Positions 30-8,451 of a stretch of 22,424 nucleotides of DNA are shown one piece after another (the first letter of the stretch is position 1; every line of letters starts with the position of its first letter). The position numbers were made by a program, and so were the translations under genes. Source of the DNA: a virus. The notes below the pieces were generated by a model that saw only the letters and a program-made list of their open reading frames with translations, was not told where the DNA came from and made no database searches. The DNA lies in IMG/VR virus record IMGVR_UViG_3300012922_000017, positions 1-22,424 of that record, one strand, 5' to 3'.

Positions 30-194
30 ATGGCAAATCAGCGGGTTGTCCGCGCTCTTGAAATTCTGCATGCCGTCAAAGAAAAACTTGACGAACAGGG
101 ATGGTTCGTATCGTCTAGGCTCATCTCTGACGCAGAGAATGAGCTTCTGCACCATCTTACCGATTTGAAGAGAGCTGATCGGGCAACGGCATGA
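30..194 (+). CDS. Small hypothetical protein (54 aa) upstream of dnaB
   Basis: Reading from the ATG gives a 54-residue protein beginning MANQRVVRALEILHAV and ending in RADRATA. A GGAGGG ribosome site lies at 21-26, a little close to the start. The stop overlaps the start of the next gene in an ATGA junction at 191-194, the same coupling seen throughout the window, which is the main reason to believe it is real. It is predicted mostly helical, charged, with no membrane segment or cysteine motif. Its base composition is less GC-rich than the following genes. I do not recognise the family; its place just before the helicase suggests a small replication-region accessory protein, but that is inference only. 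Confidence 0.6.
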   Translation: MANQRVVRALEILHAVKEKLDEQGWFVSSRLISDAENELLHHLTDLKRADRATA

Positions 195-493
195 GCGCGG
201 CCAGAAAACCGCCGCGGGACTTGGCCCACAACGCCGAACTCGAACGCGCCAACCTCGAACATATGCTGACGCACCCCGAAGACCTGCCGGAGATGCGGGC
301 CGTGCTCTCGCCGCGCGACTTCTACGACGGGTTCAACCGGAACGTCTACGAAGCGATCCTCAAGGCGCAGGACGACGGTGCTCCGCTTGACCATTGTTTC
401 GTGTCAGCGGTGCGGGCTCGGCTCATCGAGCGCATCCCAGAAATGCCGAACGCGATCCTCGGGACGGCGCTCGCCCGGCTGATCGTGCCGTAG
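191..493 (+). CDS. dnaB: DnaB-type replicative helicase, N-terminal domain (split or frameshifted gene)
   Basis: This 100-residue ORF matches the helical N-terminal domain of DnaB helicases: an N-terminal 'NAELERANLEHML' helix followed by 'LSPRDFYDGFNRNVYEAI', which corresponds to the family pattern of an F-Y..-N/H-..-I-(F/Y)-.-A-(I/L) helix. In DnaB this domain forms the hexamer collar and contacts primase or the loader. It ends at TAG 491-493, exactly where the linker to the ATPase domain should begin, and the rest of the helicase continues in the +1 frame from base 495. Skipping T491 gives '..LARLIVP-SVGSTSRWLTAQL', a good match to the usual DnaB linker region. So it is either half of a split helicase, a programmed +1 frameshift, or one gene broken by an indel or assembly error. 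Confidence 0.82.
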   Translation: MSAARKPPRDLAHNAELERANLEHMLTHPEDLPEMRAVLSPRDFYDGFNRNVYEAILKAQDDGAPLDHCFVSAVRARLIERIPEMPNAILGTALARLIVP

Positions 494-494
494 C

Positions 495-1553
495 GTGGGG
501 TCAACCTCGAGGTGGCTCACTGCACAACTGCGCGCCCAAACCGTCAAGCGGGACATGGCGATCAAGGCGCTGGAACTCGCGGCGGCGTGCTCGAACGGGC
601 ACGAGCTTCCGCAGTTGGTAGAGGCGGCGTCGAAACTCTACCGGGAGGCGCTTGAGGCCGACCCGGACTCCCGCCGGCGCGTTCAGGAAACCGGCGCGGT
701 GATGATCGAGATGGGCGAGGCGGCCCGCCAGCCAACCGGGGTCCGCATCCTCACCGGGATACCGACGCTCGACCGCGTGACCCGCGGCGTGTCCGAGGGC
801 GAGGTCTTCACCATCGTTGCCCGCCCCCAAGTCGGCAAGTCCGCGCTCGCCACGCAGATCGCGCTCAACGCCGCCTGCCGATCGGAGCGCGTCGTTTTCT
901 TCTCCCTTGAGATGCCGCGCGAGCAGACAGTTGGGCGCCTTCTCCAGCAGGCCACAGGCGTAGATGACGAGACGGTCGAGACTTGGGCACGGTGCAACTG
1001 GAAAGGGCTCACACCGAGACAGGTCGCGGCTACGGAGGCCATCAAGGAGCGCATCGTCGTGGTGGATCGCGGGCGCTCCGGCATGGAGCAGCTCGAAGCG
1101 TCCATGATCGAGGCGACCGCCGTCCTCAAGGGAGCCCCGCGGCTGGCCGTGGTCGATTACCTTGGGCTCCTTTCGACCGGCGCACGAAACATCCCGCTCT
1201 ATCAGCGGGTGAGCGAGGCCGCGCTCGAGGTCAAGAGTTTCGCCAAAAGGCACCGGGTCGCGCTCGTGCTGCTGAGTCAAGCTGGCCGCGATCAGGACCA
1301 AGACCGCTCCGAGGGCGCCGGGCGGCTCGGTCTCGACAGCGCCAGGGACTCCGGCCAGGTTGAGGAGGCTGCGGACTTCTTACTGACGATGTGGCGGCCA
1401 GAGTTGGCGTCGAAGTCGAAAGACCCGGAGATGCGGAACATCATCGAAGCCAGCCTCGTCAAAAACCGGCGCTGTGGCAAGCGACCGCCGATCCGCCTGC
1501 GACTGAATCCGATCAGCACGGCGATCGATGAACTCGCGGAGGATCAAAGTTGA
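495..1553 (+). CDS. dnaB: DnaB-type replicative helicase, RecA-like ATPase domain (second part)
   Basis: The 352-residue ORF carries the ATP-dependent 5'-3' helicase core that unwinds DNA at the fork. Walker A is ARPQVGKSA at about residues 109-117, the 'FFSLEMP' stretch follows at 135-141, Walker B is LAVVDY at 217-222, 'LLSQAGRD' at 259-266 fits the SQ-x-N-R motif, 'DSARDSGQVEEAADFLL' at 281-297 fits the conserved R-(D/E)-S-G-x-I-E-x-x-AD segment, and VKNRRCGK at 322-329 fits the arginine-finger K-N-R region. The first legal start is GTG at 495, one base past the upstream TAG, with no visible Shine-Dalgarno site, so independent initiation looks weak. Together with the upstream ORF it totals about 452 residues, a normal full DnaB length. 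Confidence 0.9.
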   Translation: MGSTSRWLTAQLRAQTVKRDMAIKALELAAACSNGHELPQLVEAASKLYREALEADPDSRRRVQETGAVMIEMGEAARQPTGVRILTGIPTLDRVTRGVSEGEVFTIVARPQVGKSALATQIALNAACRSERVVFFSLEMPREQTVGRLLQQATGVDDETVETWARCNWKGLTPRQVAATEAIKERIVVVDRGRSGMEQLEASMIEATAVLKGAPRLAVVDYLGLLSTGARNIPLYQRVSEAALEVKSFAKRHRVALVLLSQAGRDQDQDRSEGAGRLGLDSARDSGQVEEAADFLLTMWRPELASKSKDPEMRNIIEASLVKNRRCGKRPPIRLRLNPISTAIDELAEDQS

Positions 1554-2023
1554 GCGACCAGATGAAGTGGTTCAAGTTGTGGGCGACAGCACCTACAGAT
1601 GCCGAACTTCAGGCTCTCGATCCGTCGATGCGCTGGGCCTGGATCGGGGCCGCCTGCTACACCGCGATTCACGGGACCAAGGGAGTCCTGACCCTGCCGG
1701 TCAACGGGCTCGCCGGACTCGCTCTTTTCATGGCCGTGGAATCGTCTACCGTTACGGAAGCGTTACGCAAGCTGCCACATTTGACCGTCAAAATCGTTAC
1801 GCGTAACGTTACCGTAACATGGGACAACTGGCAACGTTTCCAGCAAGATACCTCTGCCGCAGAAAGGATGCGCCGTTACAGGCAGAGGAGAGGAGAGGAG
1901 AAGATCCCCCCTACCCCCCACGAACAGCAACGACCGGCCTTCGTGAAAACCGAGCGCGAACCGGCGTTCGTTTCACAGACCGATGCCGTGCCACCCTGGG
2001 AGCAGGTCAGGGGTAAACGGTGA
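1550..2023 (+). CDS. Putative replisome organiser / replication initiator-like protein (157 aa)
   Basis: The protein opens with 'MKWFKLWATAPTDAELQALD' after TTG, continues with a helical region around 'MRWAWIGAACYTAIHG', then 'VTEALRKLPHLTV' and 'VTWDNWQRFQ', and finally a basic 'AERMRRYRQRR' stretch. This order (W-x-K-x-W start, winged-helix-like segment, 'I/V-T-x-x-N-W-x-x-x-Q', then R-x-R-x-R-x-R) is typical of the N-terminal part of phage replisome organisers and DnaD-like proteins that load helicase at the origin. The start is TTG 1550 overlapping the helicase stop, or ATG 1562. It follows the helicase, as expected for a loader or initiator. The C-terminus is low-complexity and probably disordered. 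Codon use around 1750-1820 is unusually AT-rich (see origin candidate). The family assignment rests on pattern resemblance only. Confidence 0.6.
   Translation: MSDQMKWFKLWATAPTDAELQALDPSMRWAWIGAACYTAIHGTKGVLTLPVNGLAGLALFMAVESSTVTEALRKLPHLTVKIVTRNVTVTWDNWQRFQQDTSAAERMRRYRQRRGEEKIPPTPHEQQRPAFVKTEREPAFVSQTDAVPPWEQVRGKR
1750..1819. repeat. GTTAC/GTAAC motif cluster inside the initiator-like gene (candidate origin iterons)
   Basis: The heptamer CGTTACG occurs at 1750, 1761 and 1795, its complement CGTAACG at 1802, with variants CGTTACC at 1807 and CGTAACA at 1813. Two overlapping perfect palindromes result, GTTACGCGTAAC (1796-1807) and GTAACGTTAC (1803-1812). Six copies in 70 bases far exceeds chance for a pentamer. 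The codons that create them (GTT, GTA, TTA) are uncommon in this GC-rich window. Phages such as lambda keep origin iterons inside the initiator gene; the analogy is an inference. Confidence 0.45.
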
Positions 2024-2648: not shown

Positions 2649-2674
2649 TGATCACCCCTGATCACCCCTGATCA
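2649..2674. repeat. Three phased TGATCA palindromes overlapping the TerL start
   Basis: TGATCACCCC is repeated twice in tandem and followed by a third TGATCA, so three palindromic hexamers sit exactly 10 bases apart, one helical turn. The last A is the A of the TerL ATG, and no good ribosome site lies within the usual distance of that start. It closes a 131-base gap (2543-2673) that holds no gene; the gap also contains a weak GCTTACG/CGTAAGC inverted repeat (2544-2550 and 2605-2611). It could be a protein-binding operator, a small-terminase (pac/cos) site or a simple tandem duplication. Confidence 0.5.
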
Positions 2675-4161
2675 TGCCTATACAATCTCCGGTCAGTCTT
2701 GACATCCTGCGCGGCAAGACGCTCCTGCCGACGCAGGCGCGGTTCCTGTCCTCGCCGGCGCTCCGTAAGGTCTACATCGGCCCGGTCGGATCGGGGAAGA
2801 CTGAGATCACCTGCGTCCAGGCGATCCTGCTGTCGCACTACTACCTGCCGAACAACGGTCTGGTAGGGCGGCAGACGTACCCCGAGCTGCGCGACACAAC
2901 CCGCAAGCGGTTTATGGAAATCTGCCCGCCCGAGTTGATCGACGCGCGCAACACCTCGATCCCCGAGAGCGGCGGGGGCGGGCACGTCGCCTGGAAGGCC
3001 GGCGGGCGGACGATGTTCCGCCACCTCGACACCATGTCCGATCTTGAGTTCGGGTCGCTCGATCTCGGGTACGCCGCGATCGACGAGATCACGGAAACGC
3101 CGCAGCGGTCCTTCGACATGCTCGAAGCGCGCTCCGGCCGTCACTGGAAGGCCGCGCACCTCACGCCGGAGAAGTTCCCCTACTCGCCGTTGTTCGGCGG
3201 TGGCAACCCGGCCGGGCACGACTGGGTCTGGAAACGCTTTTTCGACGAGACGCGCGACGATGTCACGAAACGCATGTATCAGGGCTTTCAGCCGAAGCCG
3301 CGCGAGAACGAGCGCAACCTACCGCCCGGGTACTACGACACCATCGCGCTCGGCAAGCCGGATTGGTGGGTGCGCCGCTACATCCGCGGCGAGCTGTCGG
3401 CGCTTGAGGGCCTGGTCTGGCCCAACTTCGACGAGCAGCTTCACGTCGTCCCTGACCTGCCGGTGCCAAAAGAGTGGCTCAGGTACACCGGGCATGATCA
3501 TGGTCGGCGCAACCCGACGGCCTGTCTGTGGGTCGCGGTCGATTATGATGGCTTCATCCTGGTCTACCGCGAGTACGAGGTCAGCGGGCCGACGCCGCCC
3601 GAGCACGTGCAGGCGATCCTGGCGCGTGAGCAACGGCAGAGCGACAAGATCGCCGAACGGTACGCCGACCCGTCGATGTTCTCGAAGACCATCCCGGGGT
3701 CTGCCGGCAAGTGGCATGCCGTGGCCGACGAGTACGCCGAGTGCGGCCTGGAGATGTTGCCAGGGAACAACGCCCAGCAGCCGACCCTTGACCGCGTCGG
3801 GGCGCTGTTGTGGGCCGACCCCAAGCGTCCGTTCCCCGACTGGCATCCGCGCGCCGGGCAGACCGGATCGCCGCGGCTGTTCTTCGTGCAATCGTGCCGG
3901 AAGACGATCGAGGCGGTATCGTCCTGGCGCTACAAGGAATACCGGCAGGGCGATCTCGGCCTCCGCGAGGAGCCGGTGGACTTCAACGACCACCTGCCGG
4001 ATTGCCTGCGGTACGTCTGCACGGCGTTCCCGGAAGCCCCGGCGCGTCCGCGTCCGAAGCGCGACCTGACCGTGGGCGAGTGGCAGTCGCGGCGCCTGCG
4101 TGACAACTGGCGGCAGGTCGCAAAGAACGCGACCGAGCAGCGACGGGAGGCGGACTATTGA
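2674..4161 (+). CDS. terL: Terminase large subunit (packaging ATPase-nuclease)
   Basis: The 495-residue protein has the two-domain layout of TerL, which pumps DNA into the prohead and cuts the concatemer. ATPase domain: Walker A IGPVGSGKT at residues 35-43, an 'LVGRQTYPELRDT' segment at 63-75 typical of the family, Walker B GYAAIDEIT at 132-140 with catalytic D137/E138, and a 'GGGNPAGHDW' coupling-type motif at 175-184. RNase H-like nuclease domain: 'YTGHDHGRRNP' at 271-281 supplies the first acidic residue (D275), 'RYADPSMF' at 329-336 a second (D332), and 'DFNDHLPDCLRY' at 436-447 the C-terminal acidic cluster. Length is close to P22 gp2 (499). The ATG at 2674 is the only plausible start because an in-frame TGA lies at 2659. 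Confidence 0.95.
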   Translation: MPIQSPVSLDILRGKTLLPTQARFLSSPALRKVYIGPVGSGKTEITCVQAILLSHYYLPNNGLVGRQTYPELRDTTRKRFMEICPPELIDARNTSIPESGGGGHVAWKAGGRTMFRHLDTMSDLEFGSLDLGYAAIDEITETPQRSFDMLEARSGRHWKAAHLTPEKFPYSPLFGGGNPAGHDWVWKRFFDETRDDVTKRMYQGFQPKPRENERNLPPGYYDTIALGKPDWWVRRYIRGELSALEGLVWPNFDEQLHVVPDLPVPKEWLRYTGHDHGRRNPTACLWVAVDYDGFILVYREYEVSGPTPPEHVQAILAREQRQSDKIAERYADPSMFSKTIPGSAGKWHAVADEYAECGLEMLPGNNAQQPTLDRVGALLWADPKRPFPDWHPRAGQTGSPRLFFVQSCRKTIEAVSSWRYKEYRQGDLGLREEPVDFNDHLPDCLRYVCTAFPEAPARPRPKRDLTVGEWQSRRLRDNWRQVAKNATEQRREADY

Positions 4162-7273: not shown

Positions 7274-7565
7274 CGCCATCAGTCGCCGGGCTGCGCTGCG
7301 TCGTCGCGCGATGCAGGACTACCGGACTCCGGAGACGACTGGCCCGCACGAGTCAGCGGATCGCGCCTCGCTGATCTTCACCGGAGTTCCGGAGGGCGAG
7401 GCCGCGAGCGCGGCAACCCGCTTCGGCCCGCGCGGCTTCAAGATGGCGAAGGATATCAGCGAGACGACCGGGCAGTACGCAATGCGCGTGCTCAAGCCGA
7501 TCGTCAGCAAGGCCGGGCAGATGAGCAAGTCGTATCGGAACGCTGTGCGGGCGGTGGTGCGCTGA
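7266..7565 (+). CDS. Hypothetical basic protein (99 aa)
   Basis: The chosen ATG at 7266 overlaps the end of the zinc-ribbon gene and gives a 99-residue, strongly basic protein beginning MIDAISRRAALRRRAM, with 'FTGVPEGEAASAATRFGPRGFKM' in the middle and a basic helical C-terminus 'KAGQMSKSYRNAVRAVVR'. The frame is open upstream to 7083, but that part is low-complexity Arg/Ser and overlies the preceding gene, so it is excluded. Its stop overlaps the HNH gene start as TGATG. I do not recognise the family; basic charge suggests nucleic-acid or capsid-interior contact, as inference only. Confidence 0.6.
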   Translation: MIDAISRRAALRRRAMQDYRTPETTGPHESADRASLIFTGVPEGEAASAATRFGPRGFKMAKDISETTGQYAMRVLKPIVSKAGQMSKSYRNAVRAVVR

Positions 7566-7993
7566 TGCCCTACCCGCAGAAACATCCGAATCTAGTAAAA
7601 TCTTCAAAGACAGGCCGAAAACAGGACAGTCGCTACATCGCTTCTGTGTGCGGCCACGAGGTTGGAGGTCCGCATTATTCCCAATGCAGAGCCTGTTGGC
7701 GCGCAGGGTGCAAGAATACCCGAGATGGATACTCTTGGGAATCTGTTGGAGGTCGAAGGGCTCAAACACATAGACGTATTGCAGAGCAAGTGCTTGGGCG
7801 CTCTCTACGTCGAGGCGAGGTTGTTCACCATATCGACATGAACAAACTGAACAACCGGAACGACAATCTTCTCATTTGCACTCAGTCCTACCATATGTTC
7901 CTGCATGAACGAATGGGATTCGTATGGGCGGAAGATTATCGACGCAGGTCTGCGTCCATTGATAGCGATTTGTCTATGGCCACCTCTCCGTAG
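7565..7993 (+). CDS. HNH endonuclease (free-standing, homing-type), 142 aa
   Basis: The core is 'RIAEQVLGRSLRRGEVVHH' at about residues 71-89 followed by 'IDMNKLNNRNDNLLIC' at 90-105 and 'QSYHMFLH' at 107-114. This is the HNH_3-type pattern (R-x-x-x-E..LGR.L...E-V-V-H-H-x-(D)-x-N-x-x-N-N-R-x-x-N-L) with H88/H89, N97/N100 and H110/H114 as metal and catalytic positions. An N-terminal Cys set C29, C41, C44, C49 probably binds a structural zinc. Free-standing HNH genes spread between phages by cutting DNA that lacks them, and some HNH proteins instead assist terminase. The gene is visibly more AT-rich than its neighbours, consistent with recent acquisition. Catalytic residues look intact. Confidence 0.88.
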   Translation: MPYPQKHPNLVKSSKTGRKQDSRYIASVCGHEVGGPHYSQCRACWRAGCKNTRDGYSWESVGGRRAQTHRRIAEQVLGRSLRRGEVVHHIDMNKLNNRNDNLLICTQSYHMFLHERMGFVWAEDYRRRSASIDSDLSMATSP

Positions 7994-8002
7994 GAGTGAT
8001 AA

Positions 8003-8197
8003 TTGCCTAGCGTGAGCAAGGCTCAGCAATCTTTCATGGGCGCAGAATTGGCCCGTGCCCGTTCAGGAAAAAGGACTAAAACGCACATGAGTATTTCGCA
8101 ACTCCGTGACTTCGCAGGGACGAAGCGCGGCGGGTTGCCGATGCGGAAGAAGGTCTCGACCGGCTTCCGGCAGGCGGTGAACGGAGCGCACCGATGA
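8003..8197 (+). CDS. Small phage protein, DUF3008-like (64 aa)
   Basis: From TTG 8003, with an AGGAG ribosome site at 7992-7996, the protein reads MPSVSKAQQSFMGAEL..., continues with a basic stretch and 'MSISQLRDFAGTKRGGLP', and ends 'RQAVNGAHR'. The 'SKAQQ-x-FMG' opening and 'DFA-x-T-K-x-x-G-L-P' block are the signature of a widespread small phage protein family (DUF3008-like), usually found near terminase, portal or coat genes and of unknown function. Composition is AT-richer than the flanking structural genes, like the HNH gene before it. Its stop overlaps the next start as ATGA. Confidence 0.75.
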   Translation: MPSVSKAQQSFMGAELARARSGKRTKTHMSISQLRDFAGTKRGGLPMRKKVSTGFRQAVNGAHR

Positions 8198-8451
8198 AAC
8201 TCATCTTTGAACATGCGATGGCTCGTGGATACGTACGATCGGAAGAGTTAACACCAGAGGAGAGAATCCACGCCGCAAGAGTAGCGCGGACACAAAGAAA
8301 CCTGCGGCGACAAATGAAGTCAATCGATCGTGCGGTGCGCGCCAGAGAGATGGACATGGGGCACGGACTCCGACTGTCGATGGAGTTGATGCAGGATTAC
8401 ATTAGCCTCCATCCAGCAGCGGGATATTGCGCGCGGAGGTCCGTGACCTAG
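8194..8451 (+). CDS. Hypothetical helical protein (85 aa)
   Basis: The ATG overlaps the previous stop. The 85-residue product is rich in charged helices ('LTPEERIHAARVARTQRNL', 'SIDRAVRAREMDMGHGL') and has no membrane segment. It belongs to the same AT-richer block as the HNH and DUF3008-like genes and ends just upstream of a transcription terminator, so it is probably the last gene of the terminase-portal transcript. Family not recognised. Confidence 0.55.
   Translation: MKLIFEHAMARGYVRSEELTPEERIHAARVARTQRNLRRQMKSIDRAVRAREMDMGHGLRLSMELMQDYISLHPAAGYCARRSVT

Follow-up and report, generated by a model that had tools for sequence, protein, structure and literature searches.

A stretch of about 170 bp (approximately positions 1750-1919) within the gene for a 157-aa protein is very probably the replication origin of the phage studied here, in which the iterons would be bound by the 157-aa protein and the DnaB helicase would be loaded. 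This confidence comes from many unrelated phages, whose replication initiator genes contain an arrangement of the same kind. The window, i.e., the whole stretch of DNA that was analysed, is an entire IMG/VR virus record of 22,424 bases and represents a phage fragment. Its gene content includes DnaB helicase in two ORFs, the 157-aa gene, TerL, portal and major head protein. Since the 22.4-kb fragment is incomplete, another origin may lie elsewhere in the genome. The features concerned are the following.

191..493, plus strand: ORF for the DnaB N-terminal domain (PF00772)
495..1553, plus strand: ORF for the DnaB C-terminal (helicase) domain (PF03796), directly upstream of the initiator gene
1550..2023, plus strand: 157-aa initiator gene; the TTG start codon shares bases with the DnaB stop, and an in-frame ATG is present at 1562
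1751..1768, plus strand: left arm with two GTTACG iterons, the first at 1751 and the second 11 bp on, at 1762
1780..1792, no strand: TTTGAC-C-GTCAAA, small palindrome between the arms, read from the sequence; 5-bp stem in the fold
1796..1807, no strand: GTTACGCGTAAC, a perfect palindrome that contains two iterons at a distance of 7 bp
1801..1818, minus strand: right arm, in inverse orientation to the left one, with a CGTAAC iteron at 1802 and another 11 bp on, at 1813
1884..1904, plus strand: purine-only tract AGAGGAGAGGAGAGGAGAAGA, the sole purine run of at least 18 nt in the window
1906..1919, plus strand: C tract CCCCCCTACCCCCC, the sole C5..C5 tract in the window, directly after the purine tract

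The core of this region is a cluster of GTTAC and its complement GTAAC at 1751, 1762, 1796, 1803 (minus strand), 1808 and 1814 (minus strand), that is, six sites in 68 bp (1751-1818). These are the same six that a preliminary description had counted in about 70 bases, and the further elements it reported are also exact: three CGTTACG (1750, 1761 and 1795), one complement (1802, minus strand), and two perfect palindromes, GTTACGCGTAAC and GTAACGTTAC (1803-1812). Several features had been missed. One is a seventh GTTAC on the plus strand (1875..1879), which is separated from the main array by 56 bp and lies 4 bases ahead of the purine tract. Others are the 11-bp period within each arm, the adjoining purine and C tracts, and an inverted repeat of 18 nt made by the two arms (1751-1768 and 1801-1818), which are 89% complementary and enclose 32 bp. 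The GTTAC at 1808 sits between the right-arm iterons CGTAAC at 1802 and 1813, and the copies at 1796 and 1808 fill in between the arms and thereby create the two palindromes. The main array and the seventh site are all inside ORF 1550-2023. The limits first proposed, 1750-1819, turned out to be too narrow, because the recurring module extends through the purine and C tracts, to 1919. The purine tract, which has 18 purines in its best 18-mer and thus shares the downstream purine tract of its class (see below), is not AT-rich, with 11 of its 21 bases being G. It is likely to be the opening or helicase-loading side of the origin.

Over the whole window, GTTAC/GTAAC is not in excess (12 found against 12.1 expected), and the expectation of one copy per 512 bases used in the preliminary description is too frequent for such GC-rich DNA. 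What is unusual is the distribution, which is far from even: 7 of the 12 copies lie within 129 bp, and the rest of the 22.4-kb fragment holds five more. Among 400 sequences generated from an order-3 Markov model of the window, none had more than 3 sites in any 70 bp, whereas 6 are observed. When the search is widened to all rare pentamers, some pentamer reached six in 3 of 150 random windows, so that the count alone is moderate evidence. With common GC-rich pentamers included, six per 70 bp is not unusual; the clustering case therefore rests on the rarity of GTTAC. The codon test is stronger than the clustering count. Synonymous re-coding with the codon usage of the phage and the amino acids fixed never produced more than 4 sites (20,000 trials), and shuffling of the gene's own codons gave six sites in 5 of 20,000 permutations. 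The codons of the array are indeed rare in the phage, as had been noted (GTT and GTA account for 11 and 4% of Val codons, and TTA for 1% of Leu codons). Thus, it is codon choice, and not the protein alone, that builds the cluster. The suggestion that the base pattern is selected beyond the amino acids holds on two grounds, that re-coding never reached six sites and that synonymous codons in such arrays are conserved in other lineages.

This conservation was measured in other lineages, namely in the initiator family that includes L135 (see below), since searches for close relatives of the window gene gave none. Where two members have the same amino acid, they also share the codon in 0.81-0.89 of comparisons inside the arrays and in 0.56-0.60 outside them. 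The test leaves the reference out: the array is defined from one sequence and conservation is measured on the others. The seven p values are 0.057, 0, 0, 0.0002, 0.0002, 0.0138 and 0.0106, six of them below 0.02. Absence of such conservation had been named as an argument against an origin, and in these lineages the opposite is found; an even spread of the motif had been named as well, and the clustering in the window contradicts it. Selection acts on the DNA, not just on the protein.

The same kind of array is found in many other phages. A scan of 2.9 million viral contigs with the pattern CGTTACG-CGTTACG-CGTAACG yielded 96 stretches. For 66 of these, the ORF that contains the array encodes a motif of the (N)AERQRRYRER type; the window protein shares this motif as AERMRRYRQRR. 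For a control motif matched in base composition and CpG content (CGATTCG), the corresponding number was none of 20 stretches. Nine of 10 representative ORFs matched a PHROG replication initiation protein or DnaD-like helicase loader, and the tenth had PHROG matches of unknown function only. Distinct genes were defined as ORFs with at least 4 sites in 130 bp, in 40 groups below 70% identity. Across these 40 genes, the motif occurs in both orientations and in every stop-free reading frame, so that a conserved peptide cannot be its source, and the site spacings peak at 5, 7 and 10-12 bp. The window belongs to this class, with at least 4 GTTAC/GTAAC in 130 bp inside an ORF carrying an AERQRRYR-type motif, and its spacings of 11, 7, 5 and 6 bp fit those of the class. 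Of 39 distinct initiator genes, 18 have a purine tract (at least 17 purines in 18) within 80 bp downstream of the array; such a tract occurs upstream in none of the 39, and at 1.1% of random positions. In some loci, simple repeats take the place of GA repeats after the array, with units of ACAGG (L029, L039), TTAGAG (L019) or CTTAC (L015).

Because the loci described so far had been found by the array itself, a protein-based search was run to remove this selection bias. A profile built from four initiators detected five further distinct relatives (L135, L136, L137, L138 and L140), and tblastn added Bradyrhizobium phage ppBjS10J-1. All six have between 3 and 6 copies of GTTAC/GTAAC, which immediately follow the basic motif. 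In bacterial genomes, the same pattern gave 52 stretches, of which 6 are in ORFs with a loosely defined motif, so that the module is found mainly in phage contigs. In most initiators with AERQRRYR, the main array comes just after the basic motif, whereas the iterons of the window are in the winged-helix codons and not directly after the motif, with one site beyond it. Many initiators, among them L017, L018, L008, L010 and L073, have a GTTAC array in the winged-helix codons and a second one about 300 bp away, behind the basic motif; looping between the two arrays is possible in loci of this type. As for the control scan, CGATTCG itself recurred in a 72-bp arrangement, with positions 12 bp apart on both strands, in several prophages of isolates (L104, L105, L110, L111 and others).

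A second class of iterons came from tblastn with a GTTACG-array initiator, which led to annotated homologs in epsilon15, SPN1S, phiPSA1, BUCT711, Carin1, ZX5, Olaya, SAC and PAN70. ZX5, Olaya, SAC and PAN70 have GTAACGC/GCGTTAC sites ahead of a purine-rich tract. In epsilon15, SPN1S, phiPSA1, BUCT711 and Carin1, GTCCGC iterons occupy the same place in the initiator gene; they are followed by GAGAA repeats in the first four, while the tract of Carin1 is looser. C tracts like CCCCCCTACCCCCC come after the GA tract in BUCT711, epsilon15, L042 and L205. The initiators of Xanthomonas phage SAC and Cobetia phage Carin1 are 60% identical over 110 residues and nevertheless have different iterons (GTAACGC and GTCCGC, respectively) at the same place. 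A scan for GTCCGC quartets, with the strand chosen by the tract, gave at least 120 stretches, and among those listed 118 are in ORFs. With related copies included, 112 of these 118 have the exact layout 6-5-6-7-6-5-6 and 108 of the 118 a purine tract within 60 bp. The AERQRRYR-type motif, present with 66 of the 96 GTTACG arrays, is found in none of the 118 listed GTCCGC genes; conversely, an AKRR..RKR-type motif occurs in 95 of these 118 and in 0 of 70 GTTACG genes, which had been selected by the AERQRRYR motif. These sequence comparisons are suggestive of a basic motif that goes with the iteron type, and the pairing is to be taken as a lead only, because the 70 genes were motif-selected and the two classes are partly separate lineages.

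The 157-aa protein is predicted to contain a winged helix at about residues 25-90, followed by the basic helix AERMRRYRQRR. Its AlphaFold model, of modest confidence (pLDDT 67), has the element order H-E-H-H-E-E, which fits a winged helix. Structure searches with this model were weak (best E about 0.1 in PDB and viral searches; VIA-align Z at most 6.3), and the fold matches would indicate a winged helix and nothing further. The solved DnaD N-domain was matched in a sequence search at E 0.76 only, and PHROG, Pfam and NCBIfam gave no match at the usual thresholds, hence none to the O family. A profile comparison against phage initiators of the same architecture reached a probability of 58% and an E of 1e-4 over 116 columns; the wHTH or DnaD-like initiator families compared, PHROG 3926, 2447 and 9474, had no direct match to the window protein. 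By sequence, its kinship to other initiators appears remote. In the viral contigs searched, neither the 157-aa protein nor DnaB had a confirmed relative.

Taken as an origin, the region would work as follows. The 157-aa protein would bind the GTTACG iterons encoded by its own gene, which would act as two 11-bp-spaced pairs in inverse orientation with extra copies, and the winged helix, the basic AERMRRYRQRR helix, or both would read them. An ordered protein complex could then form on the iterons, with one DNA turn per unit, and its binding may open the duplex at or beside the purine and C tracts. The phage's own DnaB, encoded just upstream, would be loaded at the opened site, and the product of 495..1553 is the likely helicase for this step. 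We infer origin activity, as well as binding, opening and loading; the course of these steps follows the analogy with lambda. In the DnaB region, the ORF for the N-terminal domain stops at a TAG and the helicase-domain ORF begins two bases on in another frame; this split is either natural or a frameshift in the assembly. GC skew, which had been recommended as a check, lends no support. In three complete phages with related arrays, the extremes of GC and purine skew track gene direction and not the array. Skew is thus uninformative here, given that the window is a fragment and that skew follows gene direction in the related complete phages.

Other roles of the array have to be weighed. It may be an operator through which the winged-helix protein controls its own gene or operon, with no origin involved. 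Inverted palindromic sites together with a winged-helix protein do suit a repressor-operator pair, the AlphaFold model weakly resembles many winged-helix regulators (Z about 5-6), and iterons of the lambda type can do both jobs. However, the sites are 200-330 bases into the gene, away from its promoter, many lineages have a purine tract attached to them, and the genes that bear such arrays are annotated as replication initiation proteins, not as repressors; we regard a purely regulatory role as improbable. The sites might also be bound not by the phage initiator but by a protein of the host, for instance a replication factor or a nucleoid protein, that recruits the replication machinery, and the presence of the same motif in phages of very different bacteria would agree with this. 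The iteron type, on the other hand, seems to track the basic motif of the initiator itself, a suggestive relation that leaves the host protein a small chance.

It is quite unlikely that the array functions as mRNA, with the 18-nt inverted repeat folded to control translation or stability. The plus strand does fold better than 200 of 200 shuffles (z -4.0), but hairpins are a by-product of iterons in mixed orientation, some arrays have nearly all sites in one orientation, and no Rfam family matched. What speaks most against this explanation is that the DNA motif stays the same from phage to phage, whereas the strength of the hairpin differs widely (z from +0.7 to -7.5). Hardly credible at all is a cluster that arose as a side effect of the wing-strand residues VTRNVTVT, with chance added. 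Val-Thr is encoded by 4 of the 7 sites, and V and T are frequent in beta-strand wings. Against this, the remaining sites are in other frames, where they specify Leu-Arg, Arg-Asn and Arg-Tyr, the six sites were reached in 0 of 20,000 re-codings, and other phages use the motif in all allowed frames with synonymous sites conserved, so that the idea is largely refuted. An origin inside the initiator gene, which the preliminary description had put forward, is the best-supported reading on account of the recurrence of the array in initiator genes and the selection at the DNA level.

The best known precedent is phage lambda, in which an experimentally proven origin lies in gene O, with iterons and an adjoining tract (PMC7466680). 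The lambda origin and its versions in Stx phages share with the window the iterons inside the initiator gene and a strand-asymmetric tract alongside (PMC7466680), as well as a gene position beside replication helicase or loader functions. They differ in having longer direct repeats, whereas the window has GTTACG hexamers in both orientations with an 11-bp period, and an AT-rich tract instead of a purine-only one that is not AT-rich. The window initiator is not recognisably an O protein, and, unlike lambda, the phage has its own DnaB, with no P-type loader seen in the fragment. By analogy, the candidate would act like ori-lambda, and by the features tested it falls outside that family. Closer in design are the initiators of epsilon15 and SPN1S (Uetakevirus), Pseudomonas phage phiPSA1, Klebsiella phage BUCT711 and Cobetia phage Carin1 (PHROG 2509/9474 type). 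They have two direct and two inverted 6-bp iterons with an 11-bp period, and then a GAGAA-type purine tract, often followed by C tracts, inside the initiator gene; they differ from the window in the GTCCGC iteron, the fixed 7-bp central gap and the AKRR..RKR motif. The AERQRRYR initiators, e.g., L024, L095, L135 and ppBjS10J-1, have the iteron, spacings and basic motif of the window and in many cases the purine tract, and Escherichia phage ZX5 is a looser case of the GTTACG-array initiators.

The open full-text papers searched gave no description of iterons of either sequence, GTTACG or GTCCGC, within initiator genes of phages; an earlier description elsewhere, for example in subscription papers, is possible. 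In one paper considered as a report of GTTACG repeats (PMC3483164), the sequences in question are ribosome-binding sites. Tentatively, it may be that many tailed phages of very different bacteria share an undescribed origin design, in which hexamer iterons with an 11-bp period and a purine tract lie inside the initiator gene and a basic helix reads the iteron, AERQRRYR for GTTACG and AKRR..RKR for GTCCGC. If this is true, the iteron would be predictable from the basic helix, and sequence alone would suffice to map origins in large numbers of uncultured phages. To our knowledge, replication origins are known for few phages, and uncultured phages are almost a blank in this respect. Here, a candidate origin is placed within about 170 bp in an orphan 22-kb fragment without a close relative, and the same search rule locates the module in many other phages. 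One DNA stretch carries two codes, a protein sequence and the sites of a putative origin. The iterons drift through all reading frames and even switch sequence between 60%-identical initiators, and their place is kept.

Several observations concern the rest of the window. A search of a phage collection by DNA and by protein gave no relatives. The best match of its TerL to known phages is below 30% identity; TerL (2674-4161) is closest, at 28-29%, to the Paenibacillus larvae podoviruses SV21 and API480. Similar cross-phylum kinship is reported for Sinorhizobium phage AP-20-A in a 2026 paper (PMC13299392). Tandem TGATCACCCC repeats (gtgatcacccctgatcacccctgatcatg) at 2645-2676 reach the start of TerL and include a cluster of GATCA; these TGATCACCCC repeats are possibly a packaging site or an operator. 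At 7500-8250, the GC content falls to about 0.53, compared with 0.65 for the genome.
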